From a virus: a stretch of DNA of 60,947 nucleotides. The stretch spans positions 1 to 60,947 of the IMG/VR virus record IMGVR_UViG_3300028908_000010; one strand, given 5' to 3'. A program made the position numbers and the translations under genes. The first letter of the stretch is position 1; each line of letters begins with the position of its first letter. Below the pieces are notes generated by a model. It was not told where the DNA came from, searched no databases, and worked only from the letters and a program-made list of their open reading frames with translations. This document shows, piece after piece, positions 4,440-18,844 of this stretch.

Positions 4440-4441
4440 CA

Positions 4442-4777: not shown

Positions 4778-4789
4778 GGAGTTCTTATT

Positions 4790-5260: not shown

Positions 5261-5319
5261 AGTGTTGATTTTATACTTATATTAAGTGAGTTAAATCCTT
5301 ACTGGGAGTAATAGGTATT

Positions 5320-5385
5320 ATGAAACGTCTTATAACATGGCTCAGGTTGCTTATATGTAAGTTGTTAGGGGTGAATAGCTTATGA
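5320..5385 (+). CDS. 21-residue leader-like peptide
   Basis: ATG 5320 to TGA 5385, encoding a basic, hydrophobic helix beginning MKRLITWLRLLICKLL. Its stop overlaps the next start as ATGA. A peptide with the same MKR-WL-L-L-KL pattern and the same coupled stop lies ahead of the large terminase (60460-60528). The binding site is weak (GGGAG, AGGT). Suggestive but unproven. Confidence 0.35.
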   Translation: MKRLITWLRLLICKLLGVNSL

Positions 5386-5633
5386 TAGTGGCTAAAAAAT
5401 TTCTCGGATTTGCAACATGCTGGACAAGGCCCTGGTGGAAAATATGGATAAGAATTTATGCTATTTACATGGAGAAAGAAGATGGACGCAGGGATATGTG
5501 GGACGTTTGCGACGACTGCAAATGTCATTGTGATAACTATAAAATCTGGTTCGATTGGGAAGCAATAAGAAGATTTTTTGGTAAACCACTACCAACTTAC
5601 AAAGAATGGATACATCATGAAAAGGAGGTGTAA
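5382..5633 (+). CDS. Cys/Trp-rich hypothetical protein
   Basis: 83 residues, coupled to the preceding small peptide by ATGA. Tryptophan-rich N-terminus (CWTRPWWKIWIRIY), then a cysteine cluster CDDCKCHC at about 43-50 that could hold a metal. It ends HHEKEV, whose AAG GAG GTG codons form the ribosome binding site of the next gene. No family recognised. Confidence 0.6.
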   Translation: MIVAKKFLGFATCWTRPWWKIWIRIYAIYMEKEDGRRDMWDVCDDCKCHCDNYKIWFDWEAIRRFFGKPLPTYKEWIHHEKEV

Positions 5634-5635
5634 AA

Positions 5636-6028
5636 ATGATAAAAGAATATGGAAAGATAATATGCCCTGTATGTTATACTCATATTGATATAACTGTTAC
5701 CGTTGAGAAAAAAGAAGATGAAGTAGATCATAAACTTATGAGAGCATGGAATAAATACTTAGTCTGGATGCTTTGTGGTAACCCAAAATATAGAGACAAA
5801 CAATACTGGTATGATGACTACCATGAATTTGTTATGTTTAAACCAGGGAAATACCCTGGTCATGGCATTGTTTATTTTGCTATTCAAGTTCATGATTCTC
5901 CAGAGGGAGACACATGGCTTCATGCTAAAGTTCCTCTTGAAGGTGGCTCTTTAATACTCGCTAAAAAAGTAATAAAATACAGAGATACATGGCACATAAA
6001 TTGGGGGTCTGGTCATGATAGGTCCTAG
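5636..6028 (+). CDS. Hypothetical protein with N-terminal CxxC
   Basis: 130 residues, start two bases after the previous stop, site AAAAGGAGGTG. Starts with a CPVC knuckle (residues 10-13), followed by an aromatic, beta-rich body (GHGIVYFAIQVHD). Overlaps the next frame by 14 bases. No family recognised. Confidence 0.6.
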   Translation: MIKEYGKIICPVCYTHIDITVTVEKKEDEVDHKLMRAWNKYLVWMLCGNPKYRDKQYWYDDYHEFVMFKPGKYPGHGIVYFAIQVHDSPEGDTWLHAKVPLEGGSLILAKKVIKYRDTWHINWGSGHDRS

Positions 6029-6254
6029 ACTCTACATAGCTGATAAAATAGCCAAAAAGTGGGTGAAAATAGTATACCCTTGGTGGCAACCAAATGATAT
6101 TTTCTTGCCTAAGCTTGACAAGACAGCACGTAAGACAAGAGTATTTTGCTCTAACCCAATATGTTGTGGCAATCCAAGACGGTATGGCAAGCTTACAAGG
6201 CAAGAAATAAAGGCTAATTTACTATTTAAAGAAGGACTTAATGAAATAGAGTGA
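6015..6254 (+). CDS. Hypothetical small protein
   Basis: 79 residues from ATG 6015. It carries FCSNPICCGNPRR, a possible metal-binding cysteine group, and a helical charged C-terminus. The start lies inside the previous gene; the binding site is poor (GGGGTCTGG), so the start is uncertain. No family recognised. Confidence 0.5.
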   Translation: MIGPRLYIADKIAKKWVKIVYPWWQPNDIFLPKLDKTARKTRVFCSNPICCGNPRRYGKLTRQEIKANLLFKEGLNEIE

Positions 6255-6261
6255 AATAAAT

Positions 6262-6531
6262 ATGAAATGGACAAAGAACGATAAAGCAGTTGTATTGTTT
6301 GGAATTAAAAGATGGCTATCTATGTGTAAAAATGATCAGAAGAGACGTTGCCCTTTCTTTAGTAAAGAAGATTGCAAATTAATATGTTTTCATTTATTTC
6401 CCAAAATACGCAACAGTAAAAAATTATTTTGTCATTGCCCATGTGAAATATATGGTGTAGACAAAGTAAAACTAAGGTCTGAAAGAATAAGAAACTCATT
6501 AGAAAATCAGCTCAATGGAGTGATGGTATAA
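6262..6531 (+). CDS. Cys-rich hypothetical protein
   Basis: 89 residues, last gene of the first rightward operon. It has eight cysteines in the middle (CKNDQKRRC, CKLICFH, CHCPC), spaced as in metal-binding proteins. No clear ribosome binding site was seen, so it may be coupled to the gene ending at 6254. A hairpin terminator follows at 6546. No family recognised. Confidence 0.5.
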   Translation: MKWTKNDKAVVLFGIKRWLSMCKNDQKRRCPFFSKEDCKLICFHLFPKIRNSKKLFCHCPCEIYGVDKVKLRSERIRNSLENQLNGVMV

Positions 6532-6545
6532 GAAAAGTATATGTC

Positions 6546-6590
6546 AAAAATGGGGTTAGGATGTTCTCAGAAATACCCCACTTTTTCTTT
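6546..6590 (+). terminator. Rho-independent terminator of the first rightward operon
   Basis: Stem TGGGGT (6551-6556) / ACCCCA (6575-6580), extended by A:T pairs and followed by CTTTTTCTTT. It lies 20 bases after the last stop. Confidence 0.75.
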
Positions 6591-6653
6591 GGAACAATGT
6601 TTCAGCATTCAATTTGGAAAAACACGATGTTTTATATCCGTTTCAAATAAAAA

Positions 6654-6669
6654 GTGAAAACGTTTTCAC
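6654..6669. promoter_or_regulatory. Palindrome copy 2, 16-base perfect form
   Basis: GTGAAAACGTTTTCAC, fully intergenic, between the rightward terminator and the leftward accessory block. No promoter was recognised beside it. Confidence 0.85.
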
Positions 6670-6984
6670 TTGTGTGTGGGCAAGTAAGTCGGGGGAAAAC
6701 TAACATAAAACCTATTTCTTATAAGAAGTTAAATCCAACATTTTTGTCATAAAATTTTTTGTAATTTCTCTAAGAGGTTTATATTTTTAGATGTTATTAA
6801 TGTCAAAAAATATTTCCTGATTTCTATTGTAGGTTTATAAAAAACACCCACCCCTTAAATATAACTTCCCCCTGTGTCCGATAGGGTAGGGTCTTAATAC
6901 TTAACTGGGATTTAAGAGAATTAAGGCGGGCGGGCAAGGATTGAACCTTGCCCAAGTGAGGAAGGAAAAATAGAAAGGATTAAA
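6670..6984. other. Gene-free stretch between converging blocks
   Basis: No credible gene. It holds C-rich and G-rich stretches (CCACCCC, CTTCCCCCTG, GGGTAGGG) and one strong hairpin at 6932-6953. It separates the rightward block ending at 6531 from the leftward block ending at 6985. Confidence 0.6.
6932..6953 (-). terminator. GC-rich hairpin after the leftward accessory block
   Basis: GGGCAAGG (6932-6939), six-base loop, CCTTGCCC (6946-6953). It lies about 30 bases beyond the stop of the last leftward gene. No T run follows on the minus strand, so it may stop, slow or protect the transcript rather than act as a classical terminator. Confidence 0.45.
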
Positions 6985-7251
6985 TTAAATAAGGGAAGGT
7001 TTGGAGGAAGCTTTCTTTTGCTTCCTCTTTGGAATAAAGACGTTAACCTGAACAACCATATCCTCAATCTCTAATCTCATGTAGCAAAGCTGGAAGCTCC
7101 TGTCTTTCTCTACTTTCTCAAGTTTTACTTTCCTGTTATTGAAAGTCAGCCCTTGCTTTGAAAAAATTAACTTCCCTTCCTTTAATTCAGATGACTTGTC
7201 AGATGACTTGATAAAACACTTGTTTACATCCTTAAATGTAAGCTCTAACAT
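6985..7251 (-). CDS. Hypothetical protein, accessory cassette A
   Basis: 88 residues from the ATG at 7251, which follows AAGGAGGTTTGTT; an earlier in-frame start lacks a site and would cross the promoter. Small beta-rich protein with a basic C-terminus (PKRKQKKASSK). It has its own promoter at 7277-7305. No family recognised; the location in a block with an anti-CRISPR gene suggests an anti-host or anti-defence role (inference). Confidence 0.65.
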   Translation of the reverse strand: MLELTFKDVNKCFIKSSDKSSELKEGKLIFSKQGLTFNNRKVKLEKVEKDRSFQLCYMRLEIEDMVVQVNVFIPKRKQKKASSKPSLI

Positions 7252-7276
7252 AACAAACCTCCTTGATTTTTTCTGC

Positions 7277-7305
7277 ATCATAACAAAAACAATTTGAAGA
7301 TGCAA
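7277..7305 (-). promoter_or_regulatory. Leftward promoter of cassette A
   Basis: Minus strand TTGCAT (7300-7305), 17-base spacer, TATGAT (7277-7282), then GCAGAAAAAA and the ribosome site. It shares the TATGAT(T)GCA-A-run form with the promoters at 7735 and 8106. Confidence 0.6.
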
Positions 7306-7324
7306 ATCAGGTATTACCACCTTT

Positions 7325-7365
7325 TGCCCTATTCCCTTCCCTCTTATGTGTAGAGTAATAGGGCA
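7325..7365 (-). other. Inverted repeat TGCCCTATT/AATAGGGCA
   Basis: Arms 7325-7333 and 7357-7365 can form a nine-pair stem with a 23-base loop in RNA of either strand. The A/T runs lie on the wrong side for a leftward intrinsic terminator. One of several GCCC/GGGC hairpins in the gaps of this block. Confidence 0.5.
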
Positions 7366-7372
7366 AAAAAAT

Positions 7373-7449
7373 AACCCCTACTCCGTCAAGTCTTGCCCTC
7401 CTGTGTGGGGGTCATCCCCACTGTAGGGGGTTTATGTGGAGCAGGGGTT
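7373..7449 (-). other. Long two-tier stem-loop in a gene gap
   Basis: Outer arms AACCCCTACTCC (7373-7384) and GGAGCAGGGGTT (7438-7449) pair with one mismatch; inside is a second stem, GTGGGG/CCCCAC (about 7405-7421). The arrangement suggests a structured RNA in the leader or trailer between cassettes B and A. No riboswitch class was recognised. Confidence 0.45.
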
Positions 7450-7460
7450 AAAGATCAGGG

Positions 7461-7709
7461 CTAAAAGTTTATTTCCATCCAGCCCTGATCCTCATTTTTC
7501 TTTACAATGATATGCACTCCTCCCTCTTCTACAGAGGGGAAATGTGCACCAACAAATGTAAAACCAACCTCAAAAGGGAAAAATATTTGTCTTATGTGGG
7601 GACAGGGGTTTACCCCCACCTTAAAACAACCTGTAATAAAATCATCGATGTCTCGTTTTTTAATCCCTCTTTCGGCCATAATACGGCCAATAGCTTTCCT
7701 GTGATTCAT
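7461..7709 (-). CDS. Hypothetical protein, accessory cassette B
   Basis: 82 residues from ATG 7709 after AAGGAGGGCTACT. The in-frame ATG at 7739 overlaps the promoter -10 and is not favoured. Starts with a basic helix (RKAIGRIMAERGIKKRD), then a beta region. Own promoter at 7735-7764. No family recognised. Confidence 0.6.
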   Translation of the reverse strand: MNHRKAIGRIMAERGIKKRDIDDFITGCFKVGVNPCPHIRQIFFPFEVGFTFVGAHFPSVEEGGVHIIVKKNEDQGWMEINF

Positions 7710-7734
7710 AGTAGCCCTCCTTAATTTTTTTGCA

Positions 7735-7764
7735 ATCATAACAAACTTTGTTGCCTCAAATCAA
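7735..7764 (-). promoter_or_regulatory. Leftward promoter of cassette B
   Basis: Minus strand TTGATT (7759-7764), 18-base spacer, TATGAT (7735-7740), followed by TGCAAAAAAA. Same layout as the cassette C promoter. Confidence 0.65.
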
Positions 7765-8081
7765 ATCCCCCAATAAGGAGTCCCATCGGCATAGTAGCCA
7801 ATGGGTTTCTGCCTTACACATTTGTGGAAAGCTCCCTTGTAGAGAGCCTTCCCACAATAACAGCACTGATAGAATTCATAGGTGCTATCCCAATCCCCTT
7901 CCCCGAAGTTATGGCTTTCGGGGATAATGACAATGGCTATATACTCCCTGCCATCGTCATCTTTTTTGACATCATCCCACTTTATGGAGTAGTGGGATGC
8001 ACAACCACCCATACTATTAATGGGTGGTTTAAAAGATCCCTCAAACTGAGGGATCTTGTCTTTAAGGTAGTAAATTTTCAT
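7761..8081 (-). CDS. Hypothetical protein with CxxC, accessory cassette C
   Basis: 106 residues from ATG 8081 after AAAGGAGGGAGCT; the longer frame from GTG 8165 starts inside the palindrome and is not favoured. Contains CCYCGKALYKGAFHKC, a possible zinc site, and ends with DGTPYWGI. Own promoter at 8106-8135, and a palindrome 69 bases upstream of its start. No family recognised. Confidence 0.65.
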   Translation of the reverse strand: MKIYYLKDKIPQFEGSFKPPINSMGGCASHYSIKWDDVKKDDDGREYIAIVIIPESHNFGEGDWDSTYEFYQCCYCGKALYKGAFHKCVRQKPIGYYADGTPYWGI

Positions 8082-8105
8082 AGCTCCCTCCTTTGTTTTT
8101 CTGCA

Positions 8106-8135
8106 ATCATAACAGAATTGAAAATCAAAAATCAA
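8106..8135 (-). promoter_or_regulatory. Leftward promoter of cassette C
   Basis: Minus strand TTGATT (8130-8135), 18-base spacer, TATGAT (8106-8111), followed by TGCAGAAAAA. The palindrome at 8150-8165 lies 15 bases upstream of the -35. Confidence 0.65.
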
Positions 8136-8149
8136 ATTCGCTGTTACCA

Positions 8150-8165
8150 GTGAAAACGTTTTCAC
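8150..8165. promoter_or_regulatory. Palindrome copy 3, 16-base perfect form
   Basis: GTGAAAACGTTTTCAC just upstream of the cassette C promoter and downstream of the next leftward gene. It is placed where an activator or repressor could act on that promoter. Confidence 0.85.
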
Positions 8166-8194
8166 ATAAATGACAGTAATAGTTTACATGTGCC

Positions 8195-9046
8195 CTACCA
8201 TCTTTTAGGGAAAGGAAGGTAACTATCCTTACTAACCAGAATAAACCATTTATCCTTTAGAGACTGAGCAAGAATTACTTTCCTTATTCTTCCTCTCAGC
8301 TTTGTGTGGAAAAGCAGGTAGAGGTTTTTCTTATATTTTTTTGAGTTGAGGTAATCACCTGCCTCCCAACGCATTTCCTGTGTCCTTTTAACATGGTAGA
8401 AAGAACAGCCTATTTTGTGGACAGGCCATTCCTCCCATCCCCGAACACTTACTCCTACTATTTTGTTGTTTTCGTGGAATAATTTGCCCCACGAAAACAC
8501 GTCTTTCTTTATGACTCTTGCCTTTTCCTTCATCTCTGAAGGAAAATCTAAAGTTTTTAACATAGTTTCAACAAAATTGAGATCATCTGCAATGACCTTC
8601 AACTTTGTTGAAACTACCATGTTCTTTACATAAATGCACCATAGCCATTCTTCCTCCCATAAGAAATGAAAAGAGGATTCCAGTTCCCTCCATTGCTCCT
8701 CAGAGGGATACCTTACTGATCTTCCTAATACTTCCACTGGAAAGGTGCAAGTGGATGGGAAATCTAATGTCCATCCCTTGCCATAGTTATGCAAATCAGC
8801 ATGGAGCACACTGCTCCAAAATATGTGATCAATTGGGGATCTTAATCCAAATGTCCCCACTGAAGTGGTCTTAAATGTCTCCAGTCTAAAATAGGATGTA
8901 GCATTAACAGCTAACGGTAACTGTATTTTATTCTTGAAGTGTGTCCTAACAGACGCATAGATGTTTTTGTTTTCGTCATGTTTGAGAGTTATAACTCTCT
9001 CTAAACCTTCTATACTATATAAACTTCCATCTTTTTTTATAATCAT
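8195..9046 (-). CDS. Hypothetical 283-residue protein
   Basis: Largest unknown of the block after the 323-residue protein. ATG at 9046 follows AAGGAGGGAGCT. Tryptophan and charged residues are frequent (WEEEWLWCIYVK, RGWEEWPVHK); no signal peptide or membrane span. No clear promoter was found upstream, only a weak TTGATA. No family recognised. Confidence 0.7.
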   Translation of the reverse strand: MIIKKDGSLYSIEGLERVITLKHDENKNIYASVRTHFKNKIQLPLAVNATSYFRLETFKTTSVGTFGLRSPIDHIFWSSVLHADLHNYGKGWTLDFPSTCTFPVEVLGRSVRYPSEEQWRELESSFHFLWEEEWLWCIYVKNMVVSTKLKVIADDLNFVETMLKTLDFPSEMKEKARVIKKDVFSWGKLFHENNKIVGVSVRGWEEWPVHKIGCSFYHVKRTQEMRWEAGDYLNSKKYKKNLYLLFHTKLRGRIRKVILAQSLKDKWFILVSKDSYLPFPKRW

Positions 9047-9097
9047 AGCTCCCTCCTTAAAAATTTTTTTGAAAGTAATATATCAATTTTGCTGTAT

Positions 9098-9121
9098 AGC
9101 CCCACCCCATAGGGCAGGGCT
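9098..9121 (-). terminator. Hairpin AGCCC/GGGCT between cassettes
   Basis: AGCCC (9098-9102) and GGGCT (9117-9121) with an inner ACCC/GGG pairing; lies just past the stop at 9129. No T run, so termination is only possible. Confidence 0.4.
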
Positions 9122-9128
9122 TATGTGC

Positions 9129-9512
9129 TTAGAGAATAACCATTACCTCTTCGTCTTTGGGTTTTTTTGCTATTGCCTCTTCATTTTTCTTCTTGACCTC
9201 CTTTAGCTTCTGGAATATCTCGTTTTCAAGTTCTATAACCTTAACTCTTAGGGCATCCCAGTCCTTAGACGATGCTACCGTCTCAGTTCTGAACCTCCAT
9301 TTTTTATTGTCATTTAAAAATCCCCAGTCCCAATTTAACCGCTCCCCCAACAATCTTGTATTAAAATCTTTAACTTCTGCTTTAAGTCCTTTTTCTTTTA
9401 CATTGTCTCTGTCCTCCGTCGGCAAGTAAACAGTAACTTTGCACCTGTAAGGTGCTACATGTTCATTGTTAAACACATATTCCCTCTTAATCTTAACTCT
9501 TAATCCTTCCAT
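9129..9512 (-). CDS. Hypothetical protein with C-terminal helix, cassette E
   Basis: 127 residues from ATG 9512 after AAGGAGGTTTGTT. N-terminal beta-rich part (YRCKVTVYLPTED) and a long C-terminal helix rich in Lys and Glu. Promoter at 9539-9568. No family recognised. Confidence 0.65.
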   Translation of the reverse strand: MEGLRVKIKREYVFNNEHVAPYRCKVTVYLPTEDRDNVKEKGLKAEVKDFNTRLLGERLNWDWGFLNDNKKWRFRTETVASSKDWDALRVKVIELENEIFQKLKEVKKKNEEAIAKKPKDEEVMVIL

Positions 9513-9538
9513 AACAAACCTCCTTAAAGTTTTTTTAA

Positions 9539-9568
9539 ATCATAAAATTTTCTGGAAATAAAAATCAA
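9539..9568 (-). promoter_or_regulatory. Leftward promoter of cassette E
   Basis: Minus strand TTGATT (9563-9568), 18-base spacer, TATGAT (9539-9544). Confidence 0.6.
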
Positions 9569-9600
9569 ATTGGCTGTTCAGGTGGTAGAGGGCATAAAAT

Positions 9601-9801
9601 CTATTTTTTATATGCTAATTCTTCGTCTGTTACTTCTTTTCCACATTTGGCACAAAAATATACGGTTTCCTCTTCGAGAAATTGGATAACATCGTCATAG
9701 GTATGATCTCCTGCGTCCCAAATGTGGAGCAGAGCCTCTGACCTCTCTTTTCTTATAAAAACGTCATGTCCACAAAAAGGGCAACATAGCTGTCTGTTCA
9801 T
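9601..9801 (-). CDS. Small zinc-ribbon protein
   Basis: 66 residues. Two knuckles, CCPFCG (residues 6-11) and CAKCG (about 50-54), frame an acidic helical middle. Such proteins bind one zinc and often contact nucleic acid or protein. The start overlaps the previous stop as ATGA, so it is translated together with the gene at 9798-9995. Confidence 0.7.
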   Translation of the reverse strand: MNRQLCCPFCGHDVFIRKERSEALLHIWDAGDHTYDDVIQFLEEETVYFCAKCGKEVTDEELAYKK

Positions 9802-9995
9802 TTCTTTCCTCCTTTTTCCTCTGCCTTGTTAGAATAGGACAAAGCTGTCTCAAGATTATTTATGGTAATTTTGACCCACTCTGGAACAGAAGGTTTAAAG
9901 ACTTTCCAGAGGAGTCTTAAAGCCATATGATCACTCAAATATACGTAAGTTCCCTTGTGGTTATAGTAAATATGAAGTTTCACTATTTCTGCCAT
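9798..9995 (-). CDS. Hypothetical small protein
   Basis: 65 residues from ATG 9995 after AAAAGGAGGTGTATT; the upstream in-frame ATG codons lack a site. Aromatic N-terminus (KLHIYYNHKGTYVYLSD) and a lysine-rich end. A palindrome lies 58 bases ahead of its start. No family recognised. Confidence 0.6.
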   Translation of the reverse strand: MAEIVKLHIYYNHKGTYVYLSDHMALRLLWKVFKPSVPEWVKITINNLETALSYSNKAEEKGGKK

Positions 9996-10023
9996 AATAC
10001 ACCTCCTTTTAATCATTTTTAAC

Positions 10024-10048
10024 TGCCCCACCCGTATAGAGCAGGGCA
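10024..10048 (-). terminator. Hairpin TGCCC/GGGCA between cassettes
   Basis: TGCCC (10024-10028) and GGGCA (10044-10048), in the gap between the 323-residue gene and the next leftward gene, beside the palindrome at 10053. No T run follows. Confidence 0.4.
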
Positions 10049-10052
10049 AAAA

Positions 10053-10066
10053 TGAAAACGTTTTCA
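10053..10066. promoter_or_regulatory. Palindrome copy 4
   Basis: Exact TGAAAACGTTTTCA in the gap after the stop at 10103 and ahead of the gene starting at 9995. Confidence 0.85.
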
Positions 10067-10102
10067 GATATTTTACATAAATATCCTAATAATTCCAAAT
10101 AG

Positions 10103-11074
10103 TTAGTCCACCCTGTAATTACTTGTGGCACTAACTATTTCATTGTTTCTTACTGGAGTATAAATTCCTTCAAGTTTAACGGGAGTATGCTCCCGTGCTC
10201 CATGCCTTACAAGTCCCGTGCAGTAAATTTTTCCATCTTTAATAGCAATTCTGCACTTATGAGGATTTTGTCCTCTTAATCTTGGCAGAGACTTAACTCT
10301 AAAATCTTTATCTCTTAAACCGATTTCTTTTGGACTATCTGCTACCTTGATGAAAAACCATTCACCTTGTCTCAATACTTCTTTCCCTTCTGCCATAGCC
10401 TTAACTACAGTTTTTGGTTTGAGAACCTCGAATGCTTCCTCTACCGTGTTAGTAGGCTCGGGTAAGGCACAAGCGAAGTAACTCTGATCGTCGAACCCAG
10501 CCAGAATGTGGAGTCCATGATAAGATAACAAAACCGTCTCTGCTGTGTGGGCATATACTCGCTTATCCCCATTTTTAAATGTAAAGACTCGCACTTCACT
10601 GTATTTAGTTCTGAGATATCTAACGTATCGTTCAAACTCCTCTGTAGTAAACTCCTTTGGGTTGTCGGGGTCAATTGGGGGATATTCCTTATACTGTTCA
10701 CCTATAAGTCGGTATTCTTCTCCAAGCTCTTTGGCTTTTGTTTTATCGATAACTACAAGCTCTTTCAGTCTCGATTCCGTGCCAAGATAGTCGCCGAGAG
10801 CAAACATAGCTATAATGTTAAGAACTGCACTGTAAGAAACAGTCACTGCATTTACAGCCAATCTCTGCACTAAATACCTATGTCGATTAGACGTAGGGGA
10901 ATACTGATCCCCATTTATCAAAATTGTATCCTCAATCCTTATGGCAAGGATTTCGTTATAAGTCTTCAAAATATTGCCTATTGCATGAAGACTTCCTTGC
11001 CTATTTCTTGCTTGTTCATTACCCTCCAGCCAAGCTCTTATCACATCCTCATTTGTGTTAAATACTGTCCTCAT
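10103..11074 (-). CDS. Conserved mobile-element protein of unknown function
   Basis: 323 residues from ATG 11074 after AAAGGAGGATTTAGAT; the longer frame from 11134 crosses the promoter. Motifs typical of a family seen in many phages and plasmids: YSPTSNRHRYLVQR near residues 57-70 and RQGEWFFIKV near 230, with RGQNPHKC and VRHGAREHTPVKL afterwards. Function unknown to me. It has its own promoter (11106-11134), so it is expressed separately from the anti-CRISPR operon upstream. Confidence 0.7.
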   Translation of the reverse strand: MRTVFNTNEDVIRAWLEGNEQARNRQGSLHAIGNILKTYNEILAIRIEDTILINGDQYSPTSNRHRYLVQRLAVNAVTVSYSAVLNIIAMFALGDYLGTESRLKELVVIDKTKAKELGEEYRLIGEQYKEYPPIDPDNPKEFTTEEFERYVRYLRTKYSEVRVFTFKNGDKRVYAHTAETVLLSYHGLHILAGFDDQSYFACALPEPTNTVEEAFEVLKPKTVVKAMAEGKEVLRQGEWFFIKVADSPKEIGLRDKDFRVKSLPRLRGQNPHKCRIAIKDGKIYCTGLVRHGAREHTPVKLEGIYTPVRNNEIVSATSNYRVD

Positions 11075-11105
11075 ATCTAAATCCTCCTTTCTTGATTTTT
11101 TGACA

Positions 11106-11134
11106 ATTCTATCATGCAAAAATTTTATTTGCAA
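11106..11134 (-). promoter_or_regulatory. Leftward promoter of the 323-residue gene
   Basis: Minus strand TTGCAA (11129-11134), 17-base spacer, TAGAAT (11106-11111), then a leader with AAAGGAGGATTTAG that is shared with the gene at 12943-13293. Confidence 0.55.
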
Positions 11135-11328
11135 ATCAGATCTTTAACACGTAACCCTTTGGCTACCTTCTTAAATCGCTTCCAGCCAGCCTCCGAGAAT
11201 GGGTATGACATATAGAGAGTTTGCCTATCTTCTAATTGTATGGAGAATAATTTTCTAATCTTTCCTCCCACTATCTTTTTCTCCATGTCCTCCTCATGGA
11301 GATTTAAGAAATCCTCCTTTCTTAACAT
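11125..11328 (-). CDS. Hypothetical small basic protein
   Basis: 67 residues from ATG 11328 after GAGGAGGTAAACC. A second start, ATG 11286 after GAGGAGGAC, would give 53 residues and is equally well placed. Contains KIVGGKIRKLFSIQLEDRQ and a basic C-terminal helix. Last gene of the operon that holds the anti-CRISPR gene. No family recognised. Confidence 0.55.
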   Translation of the reverse strand: MLRKEDFLNLHEEDMEKKIVGGKIRKLFSIQLEDRQTLYMSYPFSEAGWKRFKKVAKGLRVKDLICK

Positions 11329-11503
11329 GGTTTACCTCCTCTAATAGAAGAAGTTTAAATCCACACTTAACACAAGTGTGGTCTATCATTTGAGGATACC
11401 CACATATTGGACATCCTCCAATACTTTTGTAATTCCCACATTTGGGGCACAAATACCCCTCTTTCGTCCTAATCATAGATATATTACAATCAACACAAAT
11501 CAT
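11294..11503 (-). CDS. Double zinc-ribbon protein
   Basis: 69 residues with four CxxC knuckles: CVDC, CPKCG, CPICG and CVKCG. This is the layout of two rubredoxin-like zinc ribbons back to back. Likely binds nucleic acid or a host protein. It lies between the AcrIII-1 gene and the last small gene of the operon and overlaps the latter by 35 bases. Confidence 0.75.
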   Translation of the reverse strand: MICVDCNISMIRTKEGYLCPKCGNYKSIGGCPICGYPQMIDHTCVKCGFKLLLLEEVNHVKKGGFLKSP

Positions 11504-11514
11504 ATTCCTCCCTC

Positions 11515-11874
11515 CTATGCTATTGTAAAAAATCTAAATTTTGCTTTCTTGACCTCTTCGTCTGTAAACTCCCTTGTCTCGTCTGGCCTAAATTGTGGAA
11601 TGATTGCAAATACCCAATCTCCGTCTCCCATTTCAATCTTAACCCTATTGAAAATGTTTTCAGGCATAGCCTTAGATATGAAATCTGGCATCCTTCGTCT
11701 AATAATATTAGCCGTATTCTTATGTCCGATGGCAGGGACAATCTCATTATTTGTAGTATTAACGTTGAACATCTCCGCCCAGAACACGGCCTCATCTACC
11801 TCCTGAACTACCACCACTGAGTCCCCTCTCATCATAGATGGGGAAAATGTTGTTGTGATAAAAATTTTGGCCAT
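11515..11874 (-). CDS. acrIII-1: AcrIII-1 viral ring nuclease (DUF1874)
   Basis: 119 residues. The N-terminus FITTTFSPSMM, the block PAIGHKNTANIIRR with His51 at the catalytic histidine, NRVKIEMGDGD, and the end FTDEEVKKAKFRFFTI match DUF1874 in order and spacing. Known members degrade the cyclic tetra-adenylate signal of type III CRISPR systems and so block the Csm6/Csx1-type response. It lies in a six-gene leftward operon (13293 to 11125), directly after a gene whose KEV end is its ribosome binding site. A one-mismatch palindrome copy lies inside it at 11649. A host-encoded relative (Crn2) exists, but the phage setting favours an anti-CRISPR role. Confidence 0.88.
   Translation of the reverse strand: MAKIFITTTFSPSMMRGDSVVVVQEVDEAVFWAEMFNVNTTNNEIVPAIGHKNTANIIRRRMPDFISKAMPENIFNRVKIEMGDGDWVFAIIPQFRPDETREFTDEEVKKAKFRFFTIA
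11649..11662. promoter_or_regulatory. Palindrome near-copy (TGAAAATGTTTTCA)
   Basis: One change in the central CG. Inside the ring nuclease gene, in the frame that reads ENIF. Confidence 0.55.
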
Positions 11875-11876
11875 AA

Positions 11877-12617
11877 TTACACCTCCTTTTTTGTTCTAAA
11901 GATTTTTATGCCATTTTCCAAGCAAATTATTAGATAGTCCACCAGTAAAAGGTCAAATCTAAAATAGTCCTTGAAATGAACAGTAAGATCTGTCCATTCA
12001 AGAGCTTTTTGACCTTTTACACAGAACCCATCTTTCCAAACTGTATAGCCAGACTTTGCACCATTTACAAGGTCGCTTAGGCATAAAATAGGTTTGCAAA
12101 TTCTAATTCCATTTACTACACACCCCCACCCAGCAGGACGAAATCTAATCGTCTGTTTTCCTACATGGGTTACATGAGGATCATAGTAAAGTCTGGCTTC
12201 ATAGGCAAAGTTAGGATGGAATTGTTCACGCAGAGCTTCGAGCTTGTCATATTTATCTCCCATTACAGCTCCATCAATAAAAGAACCTAACCTATCAAAT
12301 TCGGCAGGATTAGCAGGATTACCTTTTTCAGTGCATTTTATAATACCAATGGAGGGTAAAGAGTTTATTTTTCCATCTACATCAATAAAGTCAGGTTTTG
12401 GTCTATCTGGAGGCTCAATTTCGAGCTTAGATAATGCTATATCTGTAACAAGCCAATTAAGCCAATAGGATCTCTTCAAACTGGCACTACTTCTGCCATT
12501 TGGGGGTATAACACTGTATTTCGTAACTTTATACCCTAATGACTTAGCAAGTGAGGCAAATTTTTGTGGGTCTTTATAATTTTTGGTTATTTCTTGTAAA
12601 ATCTCTATTTCTTGCAT
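11877..12617 (-). CDS. Hypothetical protein next to the anti-CRISPR gene
   Basis: 246 residues from ATG 12617, eight bases after AAAGGAGGTG; an in-frame GTG at 12623 lies too close to the site. N-terminal helix with KSLGYKVTKYSVIPPNG, a central IDVDGKINSLPSIGIIKC block and a C-terminal FRFDLLLVDYLIICLENG. It ends KKEV, whose codons form the binding site of the AcrIII-1 gene. No family recognised. As direct partner of AcrIII-1 it is a candidate anti-defence protein. Confidence 0.65.
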   Translation of the reverse strand: MQEIEILQEITKNYKDPQKFASLAKSLGYKVTKYSVIPPNGRSSASLKRSYWLNWLVTDIALSKLEIEPPDRPKPDFIDVDGKINSLPSIGIIKCTEKGNPANPAEFDRLGSFIDGAVMGDKYDKLEALREQFHPNFAYEARLYYDPHVTHVGKQTIRFRPAGWGCVVNGIRICKPILCLSDLVNGAKSGYTVWKDGFCVKGQKALEWTDLTVHFKDYFRFDLLLVDYLIICLENGIKIFRTKKEV

Positions 12618-12619
12618 GA

Positions 12620-12940
12620 TCACACCTCCTTTGAAGATTTTTTAGTGTAATACCTACATATAGCTTTTAAAGCACACACCAACCCAGCTTGGGAGAATTG
12701 ATCCCCCCTTTTTGTAAATATGCTGATAACATATTCCCTGTTATACCAGTAAACACTTACTGCCCACATATCCCAGAAGTATAGGGGGATAGTATTAAGA
12801 TGTTTATCCCCCTTTCGCAAAGCATTTCTCACTTTCTCAATTGTTTTCTCATCTGGCTTAATTCCTATTTCTTTGGCTATTTCCAAATAATACTCATCAT
12901 GGGATACTTCACCGTTTAAATACTGTTTCCTTGTAAACAT
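12620..12940 (-). CDS. Hypothetical protein, anti-CRISPR operon
   Basis: 106 residues after AAGGAGGTGTAGTC. The N-terminus resembles a small helical domain (RKQYLNGEVSHDEYYLEIAKE), as in short phage proteins; the middle has IPLYFWDMWAVSVYWYN. It ends SSKEV, overlapping the next binding site. No family recognised. Confidence 0.65.
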   Translation of the reverse strand: MFTRKQYLNGEVSHDEYYLEIAKEIGIKPDEKTIEKVRNALRKGDKHLNTIPLYFWDMWAVSVYWYNREYVISIFTKRGDQFSQAGLVCALKAICRYYTKKSSKEV

Positions 12941-12942
12941 GA

Positions 12943-13293
12943 CTACACCTCCTTGTCTAAATCTAAAACAAACTTTACTTCTTCTTTGACGTGGCTAATA
13001 TGTATCCAGTCTTCCTGCCACCATGACTTACTGCCATGACTCCAATCCTTATTCCAGAACGAGTAGATGAACCCACATTCAATAACCGTTCCATTTTTCC
13101 CCTCCAAGTAAATTCTGTTATCCTTATGGGGACGTGGGATTTTTCCATACATCTCTTTGAGAAAATCTCTTACCTCATCCAGAGAATTAAATTCCTTTGC
13201 TGTTTGGTCAAACATATACTGTTTGTCAATATCCTGTGGACGAGGACGGGCACAATGGTGAATGTGTAGCTTATAATACTCCCTTGTAAGCAT
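12943..13293 (-). CDS. Hypothetical protein, first gene of the anti-CRISPR operon
   Basis: 116 residues after AAAGGAGGATTTAGTT, with its own promoter inside the end of the small terminase gene (13327-13355). Starts LTREYYKLHIHHC, like its neighbour's TRKQYL start, and has tryptophan-rich segments (SFWNKDWSHGSKSWWQEDW). Ends LDKEV at the next binding site. No family recognised. Confidence 0.65.
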   Translation of the reverse strand: MLTREYYKLHIHHCARPRPQDIDKQYMFDQTAKEFNSLDEVRDFLKEMYGKIPRPHKDNRIYLEGKNGTVIECGFIYSFWNKDWSHGSKSWWQEDWIHISHVKEEVKFVLDLDKEV

Positions 13294-13326
13294 AACTAAA
13301 TCCTCCTTTCTTTTGATTTTTGCTAA

Positions 13327-13355
13327 ATTTTATTGATCTTCAAAATTTGAGTCAA
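13327..13355 (-). promoter_or_regulatory. Leftward promoter of the anti-CRISPR operon
   Basis: Minus strand TTGACT (13350-13355), 17-base spacer, TAAAAT (13327-13332), mostly inside the last codons of the small terminase gene. Confidence 0.6.
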
Positions 13356-13812
13356 ATTGGGAGTTAACAGGGTAGGGTTGGTTATCTTCTTGGTTGGATA
13401 AACCTAATACGTTAAAGATAAAAGTTTGAGGAGCAGATTGTTCGTGGAGAAATCCGCCCATCTTTGCCAAAGTATTTAATGCACTTACTTTTACATTATC
13501 ACTTGTATCTTTACTTTCTACAAGTGACTTTAGTTTTAAAACAATGTAGTTTCTGTCAATTTCACCAAGCTGGGCAATTCTCTTTTGCAAATATTCAATA
13601 TATCTTTTTACAATTGGATCTCTTAGAAGGGACATTGCTTTTTGCTGAGCATATTTTTTGGGATACCCAGCTTTTACAGCACTTCTGTAAGGTCTCCTTT
13701 CTTTGGCATAGTAGTGGCAGAATTTCCTTATTCTCGTGGAGAGTTGGTCGAAACCATCCAGCTCTTCATCAGTGAACTCCTTTGGTTCTGGCAAATAATA
13801 TTCGGAATCCAT
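13330..13812 (-). CDS. terS: Terminase small subunit (Terminase_2 type)
   Basis: 160 residues. The pattern FCHYYAKERRPYRSAVKAGY, then KKYAQQKAMSLLRDPIVKRYI matches the DNA-binding N-terminal domain of Terminase_2-type small subunits (Fxxxyl, AAxxAGY, A...LLxxPxV). It recognises the packaging site and loads the large subunit. It lies far from the large subunit (59015-60463; about 13.7 kb on the circle). The C-terminal 40 residues are polar, as usual. The promoter places the transcript start at about the ATG, so the message may be leaderless. Confidence 0.85.
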   Translation of the reverse strand: MDSEYYLPEPKEFTDEELDGFDQLSTRIRKFCHYYAKERRPYRSAVKAGYPKKYAQQKAMSLLRDPIVKRYIEYLQKRIAQLGEIDRNYIVLKLKSLVESKDTSDNVKVSALNTLAKMGGFLHEQSAPQTFIFNVLGLSNQEDNQPYPVNSQFDSNFEDQ

Positions 13813-13818
13813 GTTTTC

Positions 13819-13847
13819 AATTTAGCAAAAAATGAAAATATTTTCAA
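13819..13847 (-). promoter_or_regulatory. terS promoter overlapped by a palindrome variant
   Basis: Minus strand TTGAAA (13842-13847), 17-base spacer, TAAATT (13819-13824), six bases before the ATG. The two-mismatch palindrome TGAAAATATTTTCA (13833-13846) covers the -35 and half of the spacer, a classic repressor position. Confidence 0.5.
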
Positions 13848-13904
13848 ATTAAAAACTTTTATTAAATGAAATCAATATTTTAGGCAATAAATGAAAATTT
13901 TTAC

Positions 13905-13933
13905 TTGACAAAAATAGCAATAAGAATTATCTT
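13905..13933 (+). promoter_or_regulatory. Rightward promoter P2
   Basis: TTGACA (13905-13910), 17-base spacer, TATCTT (13928-13933), inside the shared word TTTTTACTTGACAAAAAT. Drives the block 13962-18548. Confidence 0.75.
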
Positions 13934-13961
13934 GAGAAAAAACGAAAGGAGGATCAGAAAA

Positions 13962-14279
13962 ATGAAAAAATTAATTGATCAATTTGGAGAGCTTGACGAA
14001 CAAATCAAGGAACTTACAAAAAAGAAGAATAAAATTAAGAAAAAACTTGAAAAACTTGACCCTGGCAAGCATTTAGGGGATAAGCATTATATTATCCTCT
14101 CTGAAGAAGAAAAAGTAGAATATGATGTTATAAAAGTAGCCCATGCTCTAAAGAAGGAAACTCTCAAAGTCGTTAAGGTGATTGGAACTGAACTCAAGAA
14201 GTATATTCCTAAAACAAAGCTGGGGCAATACATTAAAAGTAGGACTACTTATAAGAAGATAAGGGTGGGGAGGATATAA
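13962..14279 (+). CDS. Helical basic protein
   Basis: 105 residues from ATG 13962 after AAAGGAGGATC; the earlier in-frame start lies within the promoter. An N-terminal coiled coil (DEQIKELTKKKNKIKKKLEK) leads into a compact C-terminal part (YIPKTKLGQYIKSRTTYKKI). The layout resembles small phage Gam-like or host-takeover proteins, but I do not recognise a family. First gene of its operon. Confidence 0.65.
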   Translation: MKKLIDQFGELDEQIKELTKKKNKIKKKLEKLDPGKHLGDKHYIILSEEEKVEYDVIKVAHALKKETLKVVKVIGTELKKYIPKTKLGQYIKSRTTYKKIRVGRI

Positions 14280-14281
14280 CC

Positions 14282-14434
14282 ATGAAGTTAAACAAAGCCA
14301 AATTCTGTTACAATTGTGATGAAATTTTTACGGAAGATACCTGTCCGTCGTGTGGTAGGGATGATAACTGGATATGGCTATCAAACTGGATAACTACTTT
14401 AACAACTAATTCATCAAAAGAAAAGGAGGTATAA
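14282..14434 (+). CDS. 50-residue zinc-ribbon protein
   Basis: ATG 14282 follows GGGGAGGATATAACC. It carries CYNCDE and CPSCGR, two knuckles 11 residues apart, then a tryptophan-rich end. Its last codons AAG GAG GTA TAA form the binding site of the next gene. Confidence 0.6.
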   Translation: MKLNKAKFCYNCDEIFTEDTCPSCGRDDNWIWLSNWITTLTTNSSKEKEV

Positions 14435-14436
14435 TC

Positions 14437-15042
14437 GTGGCAAAGAAGAAAAAAATAGAAACAAAGAAAACAGTCAAAATCAATGTAAGGGAGGAAATAA
14501 AACGCCTTCTCTATGAGATAGACGAAAAGAGATATGATCTCTATCTCAAAATCCACGAGGTAAAAAGAGACCAAAAGTATATAGAATGGGGATTTGATAA
14601 TTTTAAGGAATGGATAGAAAAAGACCTTAATCTTGAGTATAGAATTGGTCTGTGGTATGCCCAAATGGGGGAAACCATAGACAAATTCAATATTCCCAAG
14701 AGTGTTGTATTATCTGTCTCTTGGACTAAGTTCAAGGAAATTGCACAATTGGACAATTGGGAGCAGATAGAGCCTCTCCTAAAGAAAGCCACTGGTATGA
14801 CTTTTAAAGAAATTCAGGCAGAAGTAAAACAAATAAAAAGAAACATTGCTTCCAAGGAAGCTACTCTTACAACTCTTACTCTCAAATTAAAGGAAGACCA
14901 ATATGATATAGTAATGCAAGCTATAGAAAGAGCAAAAGAAGAGACTGGAACAGAGAGCATTGGGTCTGCTATTGAGTATATATGCCAAGAATACCTCATA
15001 GGAGGAGCAGAAAGTGACATCTTCAACTTTGAAGAAGAATAA
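14437..15042 (+). CDS. Putative DNA-binding protein (DUF3102-like)
   Basis: 201 residues from GTG 14437 after AAAGGAGGTATAATC. The block DQKYIEWGFDNFKEWIEKDL, then LEYRIGLWYAQMGE resembles the DUF3102/ParB-KorB-like helix-turn-helix proteins of phages and plasmids. The C-terminal region (QYDIVMQAIERAKEETGTES) could be a second, ribbon-helix-helix-like unit. It is the only protein here that I would put forward as a possible binder of the repeated palindrome, but nothing proves this. Confidence 0.5.
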   Translation: MAKKKKIETKKTVKINVREEIKRLLYEIDEKRYDLYLKIHEVKRDQKYIEWGFDNFKEWIEKDLNLEYRIGLWYAQMGETIDKFNIPKSVVLSVSWTKFKEIAQLDNWEQIEPLLKKATGMTFKEIQAEVKQIKRNIASKEATLTTLTLKLKEDQYDIVMQAIERAKEETGTESIGSAIEYICQEYLIGGAESDIFNFEEE

Positions 15043-15499
15043 TGTAGTTGTTTGTGGGGGAATATATAGCATCAGTGAGCACGAAAGCATCAGGTGGAAT
15101 CTGGGGTATAGTTCCAGATCTCCACATAGGTTAATCGAAGAGTTAAAAAATAAAGTCCCCATCCATCAAGTAGCTATCTTTTATATGCCTAAAGAGTGGT
15201 TACAGCATATTTCCTCTTCAGAGAGACATCCTTATATCAAACTCTATCTATCAAGATTTGAAGTTCCTGAATATACAACCATGGTGGTTCGCATCCTGAG
15301 ACATAAGTTTGGGAAACCTGTAAGAGGAGGGGTAATAACTTTCCAGGCAAATAAGGAAGGAGAATATATAAAAATTAAACATAAAGTCGCAACTGAGTTT
15401 GAAGTGATAAGTAAGACCGTTGGACAGGTGTTAAAGGTAGGGAAAGAAACCAGAGATGTTGAGATAATGAGACAGAAAAGGAGGAAAATATGGTGGTAG
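15014..15499 (+). CDS. Hypothetical protein ending in WW
   Basis: 161 residues from GTG 15014 after AGGAGGAGCAGAAA, overlapping the previous gene by 29 bases. Contains GGIYSISEHESIRWNLGYSS. It ends RRKIWW with TGG TGG TAG; the same bases serve as ATGGTGGTA start of the next gene. No family recognised. Confidence 0.6.
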   Translation: MTSSTLKKNNVVVCGGIYSISEHESIRWNLGYSSRSPHRLIEELKNKVPIHQVAIFYMPKEWLQHISSSERHPYIKLYLSRFEVPEYTTMVVRILRHKFGKPVRGGVITFQANKEGEYIKIKHKVATEFEVISKTVGQVLKVGKETRDVEIMRQKRRKIWW

Positions 15500-15927
15500 A
15501 GGTATGGATAGGAGAATATAAGGAAAAGAATTTTCCTATGTATTACTCATGCCAGAATACTTTGTATGCAGGAGAGTCATTTCGAGGGGAAGAATTGATA
15601 TGGGATAAGTATAATTTTATAGAATTCAAATATCTTCCAGCAAAGAAAGTTGATAAGTTTTCCAATGAATACTATAATCTCGAAAAATATGAAGTAACTG
15701 TAAAAGAATACTCCTGTATTATGATAGAATTTACATGGTATTTCCATTGGAAACGCAGTAAGAAAGAGTGGAGCAAAGAACGCTGGGTATTTCATGTAGC
15801 AGAAGAATATGATAGAAAGGAAGTAAAACATAGACTCTTAAAATCTTTCAAGATAATTGGAAATCTTGGCACTATGCTGATGGATGGAGCAGGTAAGGAA
15901 ACATTGAGGGGAAGAGTATGGTGGTAA
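15490..15927 (+). CDS. Hypothetical protein, tandem paralogue 1
   Basis: 145 residues starting MVV in the overlap with the previous WW stop. It shares LYxGESFxG and a (F/I)E(F/M)(K/R)YLP segment with the next gene, suggesting an old tandem duplication. Aromatic and basic. It ends GRVWW, again overlapping the next start. Confidence 0.6.
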   Translation: MVVEVWIGEYKEKNFPMYYSCQNTLYAGESFRGEELIWDKYNFIEFKYLPAKKVDKFSNEYYNLEKYEVTVKEYSCIMIEFTWYFHWKRSKKEWSKERWVFHVAEEYDRKEVKHRLLKSFKIIGNLGTMLMDGAGKETLRGRVWW

Positions 15928-16433
15928 AATCCAAACTTATAACCTCAATGAATGACTATAGCATAATAAAAGGAAAACTGGAATATTATTTTGAGGAAGT
16001 TAAATCCCGTTTTCTGCGGATAGTAGCTTTAATTGATGATTATGAACTGCCAGAAATGTTAGAGTTACCCAATTCAGTAAATGTTCTTCCGAGAGGATAC
16101 TTCTTATATAAAGGGGAAAGTTTCGGAGGGTATACACATATAATGAAAGGGGGGTTTTGTGAAATACACTATACAAATTTTGAAATGAGGTATCTCCCTT
16201 ATAGGAATTTGACTTTATCTGTATACCAATACCGTAGCTCCAAGGGCAATGAGAGGTTGTTATTACACACTCCACAAATAAGAATAGGAATACGCACTAT
16301 TCCTTCAGCAAGGACTAAAATGAAGTTGAAATATAGTAGAAGTGAACTTCAGGGGGATTTTGCAGTAGTAGATTATATAGATAGCAAAGATTTTTGCTAT
16401 TACCCTTATACAACTAAAAAAATCTGGTGGTAG
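15918..16433 (+). CDS. Hypothetical protein, tandem paralogue 2
   Basis: 171 residues starting MVV. LYKGESFGG and FEMRYLP match the preceding gene at a similar spacing. It ends KKIWW. The fourth of the WW-ending genes in this genome. No family recognised. Confidence 0.6.
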   Translation: MVVKSKLITSMNDYSIIKGKLEYYFEEVKSRFLRIVALIDDYELPEMLELPNSVNVLPRGYFLYKGESFGGYTHIMKGGFCEIHYTNFEMRYLPYRNLTLSVYQYRSSKGNERLLLHTPQIRIGIRTIPSARTKMKLKYSRSELQGDFAVVDYIDSKDFCYYPYTTKKIWW

Positions 16434-16443
16434 GAGGTATGTT

Positions 16444-16704
16444 ATGAGTAGATACATTAGGTTAAAAATGCAGGTTAACAAAGAGAGGTTTTTAAATTGT
16501 GCCCAGAGATTGGGATATTCCACTATAGAAAATCGTGTGACTGGAAATGGGTTGTATAGACCTATTGAGGTGCATGATAATGGGTATTTATCTTATGATG
16601 ACATGAATGTAAAGCAGGTAGCAGAGATCATGGGAGAATACGTAGCTGACACCTATGGAGGGAGGGTAGAAAAGGTAAATGACGAAATATTTGTGTATGT
16701 ATAG
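16444..16704 (+). CDS. DUF1257/Ycf35-like small protein (tentative)
   Basis: 86 residues, shorter than the usual 110-130 of the family. The start YIRLKMQVNKERFLNCAQRLGY fits the DUF1257 N-terminus (residues that bring a conserved LGY), and the C-terminal part ends in a strand FVYV. The main support is context: it is followed by a DUF2997 protein and a Ycf46-like AAA ATPase, the same set found together in other genomes. AGGAGGTATGTT precedes the start. Confidence 0.5.
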   Translation: MSRYIRLKMQVNKERFLNCAQRLGYSTIENRVTGNGLYRPIEVHDNGYLSYDDMNVKQVAEIMGEYVADTYGGRVEKVNDEIFVYV

Positions 16705-16713
16705 GAGGAAATT

Positions 16714-17013
16714 ATGGAACAATTAAAATTATTTGAGGAGGTGTGGTATGCCAATAATAAAGATCAAAGTAAACAAAGACGGAACGATCGAGTTGAAGGG
16801 AGAAGGGTTTTATGGGAACGAGTGTCTTCAACCAATGGGAGATCTGGCAAAGGATCTGGGAGTGACATTGGAAGAGAAGCCTCTGGAAGGGGAGGAGATT
16901 GTCCATATATCATCATAAAAGTGGAAGGGGATATTCTCAGGGTAGTTCTTGAGGACTGTCCTGAATGCCCCTTTAAACAATGTAAAAATTGTGAAAAAGG
17001 ACATTGTGGTTAG
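16714..17013 (+). CDS. Overlapping frame with Cys-rich C-terminus
   Basis: 99 residues from ATG 16714 after AGGAGGAAATT. It runs through the whole DUF2997 gene in another frame; that middle part is low in complexity and may be a by-product. The end, CPECPFKQCKNCEKGHC, is a plausible metal-binding cysteine cluster and may also be made alone from GTG 16921 (30 residues). It may be an iron-sulfur or zinc partner of the AAA ATPase. Real product uncertain. Confidence 0.4.
   Translation: MEQLKLFEEVWYANNKDQSKQRRNDRVEGRRVLWERVSSTNGRSGKGSGSDIGREASGRGGDCPYIIIKVEGDILRVVLEDCPECPFKQCKNCEKGHCG
16748..16918 (+). CDS. DUF2997 protein
   Basis: 56 residues from ATG 16748 after GAGGAGGTGTGGT. The pattern IIKIKVNKDGTIELKGEGF, then GNECLQPMGDLAKDLG matches DUF2997 (strands, EGFxGxxC, helix ending LG). 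Known members sit beside DUF1257 and Ycf46-type AAA ATPases; the biochemical role is unknown to me. Here it lies directly between the two and within another open frame. Confidence 0.75.
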   Translation: MPIIKIKVNKDGTIELKGEGFYGNECLQPMGDLAKDLGVTLEEKPLEGEEIVHISS

Positions 17014-17027
17014 AAAGGAGGAGAAAA

Positions 17028-18548
17028 ATGTTAGAATTACTTATAAGAAGTCAATGTAATGTTATAGTATTGAATACTATTGAGACTGATCGGGCATTTA
17101 GATATGTCTCTGATCAGGTAAATATTTTAAACCAGAAATTGTCAGAGATGCAGGTAAAGCCAGAAGGGTTGGAAGATGGATATGAAGTATTAGTGTGGAA
17201 TCCTATAGATGGGATAGGAGGGGGACAATATTCTAACTACATAGATATACTCAGATCAGTATTGGATGCCCCTCGCCCGACTGTTTATTTTCTATCCAAT
17301 TACCACTTCTTTATAAGGGAGCAGTTTAATCTACCTGCTATATTACATTACATTAAAGAAATATCCAAACAAGAACGATTTGTCCATGTGGTTCTACAGG
17401 GAGAATTTAATCTTCCAGCAGAGATAGCTCAATACTGCCAAATGATTGATATTCCTCTTCCTTCTAAGGAGGAAATCTTTGAAATTCTTTCCAATATAAA
17501 TGAAGCGGAGGGATTCAATATTAAAAAATCGTCATTGCAGAGATCTGCTGAATACCTTAGTGGGCTCACCCAATCAGAAGTTGAAATGATATTCAGAACT
17601 GCAATTGCTCAGAAGAAAGGAAAGGTTGACCCAGACCTGCTTCAAAAGTTAAAGGCTGAAAAAGTAAAGAAAGAAGGGCTAATTGAATATATTGCTCCCA
17701 ATGAGACTATGAATGATCTTGGAGGATTAGGTAACTTGAGAGAATGGGCATTAATGGTTGCAAAGGTGTTTACACATAGGGAGGAAGCGATTAGGAAGAA
17801 AGTTCCTGTTCCTAAAGGAATGCTCCTTGCAGGAGTCCCAGGAACAGGTAAGACTCTCTCCTGTAAGATAATAGCTAACCTGTTCAAAGTGCCCTTGCTT
17901 AGAGTTGATATTGGAAAACTGTTTGCCAGCAGGCTTGGAGAAACAGAATCCAATACACGTAAAGTCTTAAAAGAGATAGAAGCCCAAGCTCCTGCTGTTG
18001 TCATGATAGATGAAGCTGAAAAAGCATTCAGTGGGTTGGGATCTTCTGATATGACTGATGCTGGAACTACTGCAAGAGTAATTTCTTCGTTTCTCTACTT
18101 CATGCAGGAAAATAATGCTCCATTATTCTTTGCTTTCACTGTGAATAATGTTCTTGCCCTTCCTCCAGAACTTGAGAGGAGAGGAAGAATAGATGAATTA
18201 TGGTTTGTGGATCTTCCCTCGCAACAAGAAAGAATGGAGATTATTAAGGTTCATCTAAAGAAACTGGGGCTGGATGTGAAAACATTTTCACTACAAAAGA
18301 TAATAGAAAAGACAAAATCCTTTACTGGGGCAGAAATTGAAACAATAATTAAACAGGCAAAATTAAAAGCTTTCTATGAAGACAGAAAGACAAACACTAA
18401 AGACATTTGTGAGATGGCCGAAAAGACTGTTCCTCTTGCTGTTAGCAGGAGGGAAGAAATAGAAGCTATTAGAGAGTGGGGGAAAACCAGAGCAAGATTA
18501 GCAAACAGTGTAATAAAACAGGAATTTGTAAAAAGAACAATATTTTAA
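17028..18548 (+). CDS. Ycf46-like AAA ATPase
   Basis: 506 residues from ATG 17028 after AAAGGAGGAG. The N-terminal domain begins LLIRSQCNVIVLNTIETDRA and has VWNPIDGIG, as in Ycf46 proteins. The AAA domain has Walker A GVPGTGKT (269-276), Walker B VVMIDEAEKAF near 325-335, and arginine-finger region PPELERRGRIDE; a C-terminal lid follows (FTGAEIETIIKQA). No protease or membrane part, so it is not FtsH. It probably remodels a protein complex, perhaps with the two small partners upstream. Contains a one-mismatch palindrome at 18277. Confidence 0.85.
   Translation: MLELLIRSQCNVIVLNTIETDRAFRYVSDQVNILNQKLSEMQVKPEGLEDGYEVLVWNPIDGIGGGQYSNYIDILRSVLDAPRPTVYFLSNYHFFIREQFNLPAILHYIKEISKQERFVHVVLQGEFNLPAEIAQYCQMIDIPLPSKEEIFEILSNINEAEGFNIKKSSLQRSAEYLSGLTQSEVEMIFRTAIAQKKGKVDPDLLQKLKAEKVKKEGLIEYIAPNETMNDLGGLGNLREWALMVAKVFTHREEAIRKKVPVPKGMLLAGVPGTGKTLSCKIIANLFKVPLLRVDIGKLFASRLGETESNTRKVLKEIEAQAPAVVMIDEAEKAFSGLGSSDMTDAGTTARVISSFLYFMQENNAPLFFAFTVNNVLALPPELERRGRIDELWFVDLPSQQERMEIIKVHLKKLGLDVKTFSLQKIIEKTKSFTGAEIETIIKQAKLKAFYEDRKTNTKDICEMAEKTVPLAVSRREEIEAIREWGKTRARLANSVIKQEFVKRTIF
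18277..18290. promoter_or_regulatory. Palindrome near-copy (TGAAAACATTTTCA)
   Basis: One central change, with G and C flanks kept. Inside the AAA gene in the frame reading VKTFS. Confidence 0.55.
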
Positions 18549-18613
18549 CTTGACTTCTTTTATAATCCTTCCTATATTTAAGTATACTCATCCTACTTAT
18601 GATCCTCCTTTCT

Positions 18614-18633
18614 AAGCCCCCAAATGGGGGCTT
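18614..18633. terminator. Bidirectional hairpin between converging genes
   Basis: AAGCCCCC, loop AAAT, GGGGGCTT: an eight-pair stem lying between the AAA gene (stop 18548) and the converging small gene (stop 18635). Downstream T content is modest on both sides. Confidence 0.6.
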
Positions 18634-18634
18634 C

Positions 18635-18838: not shown

Positions 18839-18844
18839 ATTAAT

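Follow-up and report, generated by a model that had tools for sequence, protein, structure and literature searches.

The gene of interest lies in a 60.9 kb window that comprises a whole IMG/VR virus record (30-38% G+C). The window carries a 126-base exact direct repeat at its ends (10-135 = 60822-60947), indicating that the genome is probably complete, either circularly assembled or terminally repeated, with a length of about 60.8 kb. The collection seemingly classes the record as linear. The proteins encoded by the window include DnaB, a primase, RecA, a portal-like protein, and TerL, the last of which is nearest to that of Vibrio phage RY-3 (44%). No tRNA was found in the window, and no cas gene was found among the window ORFs searched. 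The ring nuclease gene is encoded by the virus, outside any host CRISPR locus, and sits within a tightly packed leftward gene run headed by the terminase small subunit (Table 1). Comparison of neighbour proteins with PADLOC gave no match. For the 2,962-residue ORF elsewhere in the window, the probable product is a giant protein of the virion or an internal protein.

Table 1. Coordinates and characteristics of features in the window, with the CRISPR locus of the candidate host in the last line.
Feature	Position	Strand	Characteristics
DUF1874/AcrIII-1-family ring nuclease gene	11515..11874	-	ATG start, 119 aa; Pfam, PDB and PHROG matches and fold
Shine-Dalgarno region upstream of the ring nuclease ATG	11876..11892	-	AAAAGGAGGTGTAATT
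Protein directly upstream of the ring nuclease	11877..12623	-	248 aa; without confident family
Terminase small subunit	13330..13812	-	First gene of the leftward run; homologue in the corresponding position of L039
Zinc-ribbon-like protein just downstream of the ring nuclease	11294..11503	-	69 aa; similar protein downstream of the L039 relative
343-aa protein	10103..11134	-	C-terminus homologous to L039 2713-2910, extending the synteny
2,962-aa ORF	30129-39017	-	About 15% of the genome; without confident Pfam family; next to large ORFs (601-758 aa) that are also unassigned
Family A DNA polymerase with N-terminal uracil-DNA-glycosylase domain	27770-30142	+	Similar full-length proteins in Serratia phages (27%)
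N6/N4 DNA methyltransferase and thymidylate-synthase-like gene	3004-3903 and 2161-2832	+	The latter matches only part of the family profile
CRISPR locus of an Aerophobetes MAG (L041; G001 contig C134)			Type III-A type Csm1, Cas6, CRISPR array with repeat GTTTTAATCCCTTATTAATCAGGTCTATCTTTCAGAC

The coding character of the ring nuclease ORF is apparent from its start signal and its divergence pattern. The ORF is preceded by AAAAAGGAGGTGTAATT, which provides a strong Shine-Dalgarno sequence. The nearest relative of the encoded protein, L039, shares 61% identity, and the divergence between the two genes at codon positions 1/2/3 is 0.31/0.17/0.51, a pattern of purifying selection indicating that the gene has been kept. 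Overlapping ORFs are present on the opposite strand at this locus. The coordinates given by a first-pass annotation were correct, and the strand that it omitted is the minus strand. The motifs it had listed, FITTTFSPSMM, PAIGHKNTA (containing His51), NRVKIEM, and FRFFTI, are all present.

The protein is a genuine member of the AcrIII-1 (DUF1874) family, as the first-pass annotation had claimed, and Pfam, PDB sequence searching, alignment, structure prediction, and fold searching agree on this assignment. The 119-residue protein matches PF08960 (STIV_B116-like, DUF1874) with 35.2 bits (E 1.4e-8; 34 bits for the ORF in the genome search), relative to a curated gathering cut-off of 26 bits, and residues 3-115 match PHROG 5063 (E 1.1e-9). 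In a single-sequence phmmer search of PDB chains the best match is STIV B116 (2j85, E 3.4e-7), and SIRV1 gp29/ORF114 (2x4i) was also found (E 0.0098). An AlphaFold2 model of the monomer, made from an alignment of 17 DUF1874 members, has a mean pLDDT of 92.1 and a pTM of 0.85. All 16 matches with E <= 0.001 in a PDB fold search with this model are DUF1874 proteins; the structures matched include STIV B116, AcrIII-1 (6SCF, E 9.7e-8), SIRV1 (2X4I), AFV3-109 (2J6B), and Csx1-Crn2 (8Y7F/8Y7G), with STIV B116 (2j85) the best match (E 6.2e-8, TM about 0.75). The monomer model thus matches both STIV B116 and SIRV1 gp29 (the latter written as "SIV1" in the first-pass annotation, which had proposed both comparisons), and it is not a structure devoid of the DUF1874 site. 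Carriers of the family are mainly phages, with 36 phage genomes compared to 7 prokaryotic genomes (PMC12409355).

The active site was examined using an alignment that took in SIRV1 gp29, STIV, AFV1, and the protein of Thermoanaerobacterium phage THSA-485A. Residues Ser11, His51, Arg77, Arg96, and Glu99 in the window protein are equivalent to S11, H47, R66, R85, and E88 in SIRV1 gp29, and His51 is paired with SIRV1 His47 in all alignments made. Furthermore, G50, H51, T54, R77, and R96 are invariant in the 17 aligned members. Roles for R66, R85, S11, and E88 were reportedly described in a 2020 Nature structure paper. SIRV1 gp29 loses its activity when this histidine is changed to Ala (H47A; PMC7213978), and the family histidine has been described as a general acid (PMC7371418, PMC12830947).

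Comparison with characterized proteins reveals both likenesses and differences. SIRV1 gp29 (2x4i, 6scf) has the DUF1874 fold in common with the window protein, and the S11, H47, T50, N65, R66, R85, and E88 positions are kept, although identity is about 30%. In contrast, N8 is replaced by Thr, N13 by Ser, G89 by Thr, and the RLEEGK loop by RPDETREF, and the window protein has about 7 extra residues before NRV. The carriers also differ, as the window is a tailed bacteriophage and SIRV1 is a rudivirus of archaea. STIV B116 (2j85), the best PDB match by both sequence and fold, differs from the window protein by the same branch-defining substitutions. Phage THSA-485A is likewise a tailed bacteriophage, and its AcrIII-1 is a DUF1874 ring nuclease; however, that protein falls outside the branch of the window protein. 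Both SIRV1 and THSA-485A, the tested members that were aligned, keep N8, E88, and G89. The catalytic domain of Crn2 and the Marinitoga Csx1-Crn2 fusion (8y7f, 8y7g) has the same fold as the window model, but there the host encodes it next to type III CRISPR genes, as a fusion with an effector, whereas the window gene is a stand-alone phage gene.

The broad DUF1874 alignment was too diverged for use as a search query. Relatives were sought with a profile that combined the window protein with the two viral proteins most closely related to it. The resulting branch contains eight phage proteins: the window protein, L029 (also present in two further contigs), L032, L033, L034, L035, L039, and L089. 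L039 comes from a GTDB genome and the other relatives from IMG/VR contigs, with L089 obtained via a wider branch alignment. A maximum-likelihood tree without L089 groups the seven members, including the window protein, with support of 95/94, and this group is separate from both the archaeal-virus branch and the other phage members. In a profile-profile comparison, the branch matches that of SIRV1/STIV with a probability of 99.2 (E 2.2e-19). A search of the viral contigs and plasmids with the single window protein gave no close relatives, and at the nucleotide level the 10 kb surrounding the gene had no match in the phage collection.

Several of the substitutions noted above extend to the branch as a whole. 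The N8 position is occupied by Thr (Ala in L032), the G89 position by Thr or Ala, and the RLEEGK loop is replaced by Rxxxx(R/T)EF; in the window protein these motifs read TTTFSPSM and R96xxxxREF. The E88 position varies across the eight members (E, S, K, E, V, V, V, V, with Glu in the window protein). In the seven-member alignment Met14, Glu25, Thr54, Pro93, Glu102, Phe103, Ala111, and Arg114 are invariant. The family, the fold, and the His/Arg/Arg core are confirmed, but the first-pass statement that the protein follows the DUF1874 pattern "closely" is overstated, as its branch lacks the N8, G89, and RLEEGK loop of the aligned tested members. To our knowledge, none of the eight proteins has been assayed, and the published active members apparently all fall outside the branch.

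Taken with the behavior of characterized relatives, these observations suggest that the gene encodes a dimeric DUF1874 cA4 ring nuclease that functions as an AcrIII-1 anti-CRISPR of a tailed bacteriophage, a reading to which we assign a probability of roughly 0.78; we infer the dimer, the cA4 substrate, catalysis, and counter-defence from those relatives. In the proposed mechanism, a Cas10 cyclase would make cyclic tetra-adenylate (cA4) during infection, and the small dimeric enzyme would bind it. Next, the ring would be cut with His51 serving as general acid while Arg77 and Arg96 hold the phosphates; the products expected of an AcrIII-1 ring nuclease are linear di-adenylates. Effectors activated by cA4 would then stay off, neutralizing type III immunity. 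Since tested members of this gene family destroy the type III alarm signal, the virus is very probably able to disable that defence. The tested DUF1874 members are all reported to be cA4 enzymes (PMC12409355, PMC12830947, PMC7371418), and the THSA-485A bacteriophage member blocks cA4-based immunity in vivo (PMC7371418).

The substitutions at N8, G89, and E88 suggest that activity or nucleotide preference may differ in this branch. A tentative proposal is that the proteins form a separate branch with a rebuilt loop and a lost N8 in which Glu102 replaces the role of E88, possibly with a different cyclic oligoadenylate or rate. It is unlikely that the R96xxxxREF loop and the N8T substitution alter specificity to the extent that the enzyme mainly degrades a cyclic nucleotide other than cA4, such as cA3, cA6, or a CBASS signal. 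The substitutions lie near the expected ligand pocket and are common to the whole branch, and broad-specificity ring nucleases are known in another family, Crn4 (PMC12830947); however, the His/Arg/Arg core and the overall fold are unchanged, and the reported substrate of the tested members is consistently cA4.

Even less probable is a protein that binds without cutting, whether as a cyclic nucleotide sponge or as a regulatory or nucleic-acid-binding protein. Several records with older annotations label family members "DNA binding protein", and most branch members are without an E88 equivalent. This explanation is opposed by the essential catalytic His, which is invariant in every aligned member, and by the Glu that the window protein retains at the E88 position. 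A chance resemblance or a non-coding ORF, as the overlapping ORFs on the other strand might suggest, is already refuted by the Pfam match over the curated cut-off, the confident fold, the codon-like divergence from the 61% relative, and the strong ribosome-binding site. The cA4 ring nuclease remains the favored reading.

The first-pass annotation had also predicted a host with a type III system, and the genome of the nearest relative lends this indirect support. L039 lies on a 3,020-bp phage contig binned into the Candidatus Aerophobetes isolate AUK284 MAG. The gene order of this contig is that of the window, running from the terminase small subunit through other genes to the ring nuclease, which is followed by the zinc-ribbon protein and the homologue of the C-terminus of the 343-residue protein. 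Another contig of the same MAG encodes Csm1/Cas10 (582 bits, with a GGDD palm and an N-terminal HD-like region) and Cas6 beside an eight-repeat CRISPR array. A confident Csm1 is found in 1 of 17 genomes of the phylum, as is a DUF1874 gene, and the same MAG has both. Csm3 was not found in the MAG; its absence may reflect that the contig carrying Csm1 stops shortly after this gene. A Csx1-type CARF effector was likewise not found in the MAG with a control that worked; searches of the MAG for Csm6 HEPN and APE2256-type CARF gave no match, but their controls also failed, making them uninformative. Of the spacers in the MAG, 7 were readable, and their best matches to the window and L039 were no better than those of shuffled controls. 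When positions 1-20000 of the window were compared with the L039 genome alone, only the L039 contig rose above chance, while positions 40948-60947 gave only weak, chance-level matches to the 17 Aerophobota genomes, among which no TerL was found. A type III host is consistent with the MAG data, which amount to a single co-occurrence involving a 3-kb contig that may be misbinned, and the phage possibly infects an uncultured Candidatus Aerophobetes lineage.

The phage is otherwise little known, and its gene departs modestly from the known family in the remodelled loop of the branch; the mechanism is modelled on well-studied relatives. With this assignment, a tailed bacteriophage that may infect Candidatus Aerophobetes joins the carriers of a potent type III anti-CRISPR, and the changed pocket loop can reveal residues needed for cA4 cutting in the family. 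Should the link to this host prove correct, the phage lineage could be paired with a Cas10-signalling host without culture.

Additional observations were made on related contigs. The ring nucleases of L033 (9989-10531) and L034 (9989-10531) are extended at the C-terminus by about 65 residues that look helical. The L033 gene lies among apparent structural genes, unlike that of the window. A CRISPR-like array in L035 was rejected, as it proved to be a tandem repeat. The DUF1874 frame of contig 3300033145_000829 (L036/L092) is broken after about 62 residues, with the remainder in another frame, reflecting either a pseudogene or a sequencing error. The DUF1874 proteins of two viral contigs, L037 (9713-10219) and L038 (6814-7317), resemble that of Hydrogenobaculum phage 1, and their frames are open into an upstream ribbon-helix-helix-like (DNA-binding) segment, possibly a fused or overlapping Aca-type regulator.
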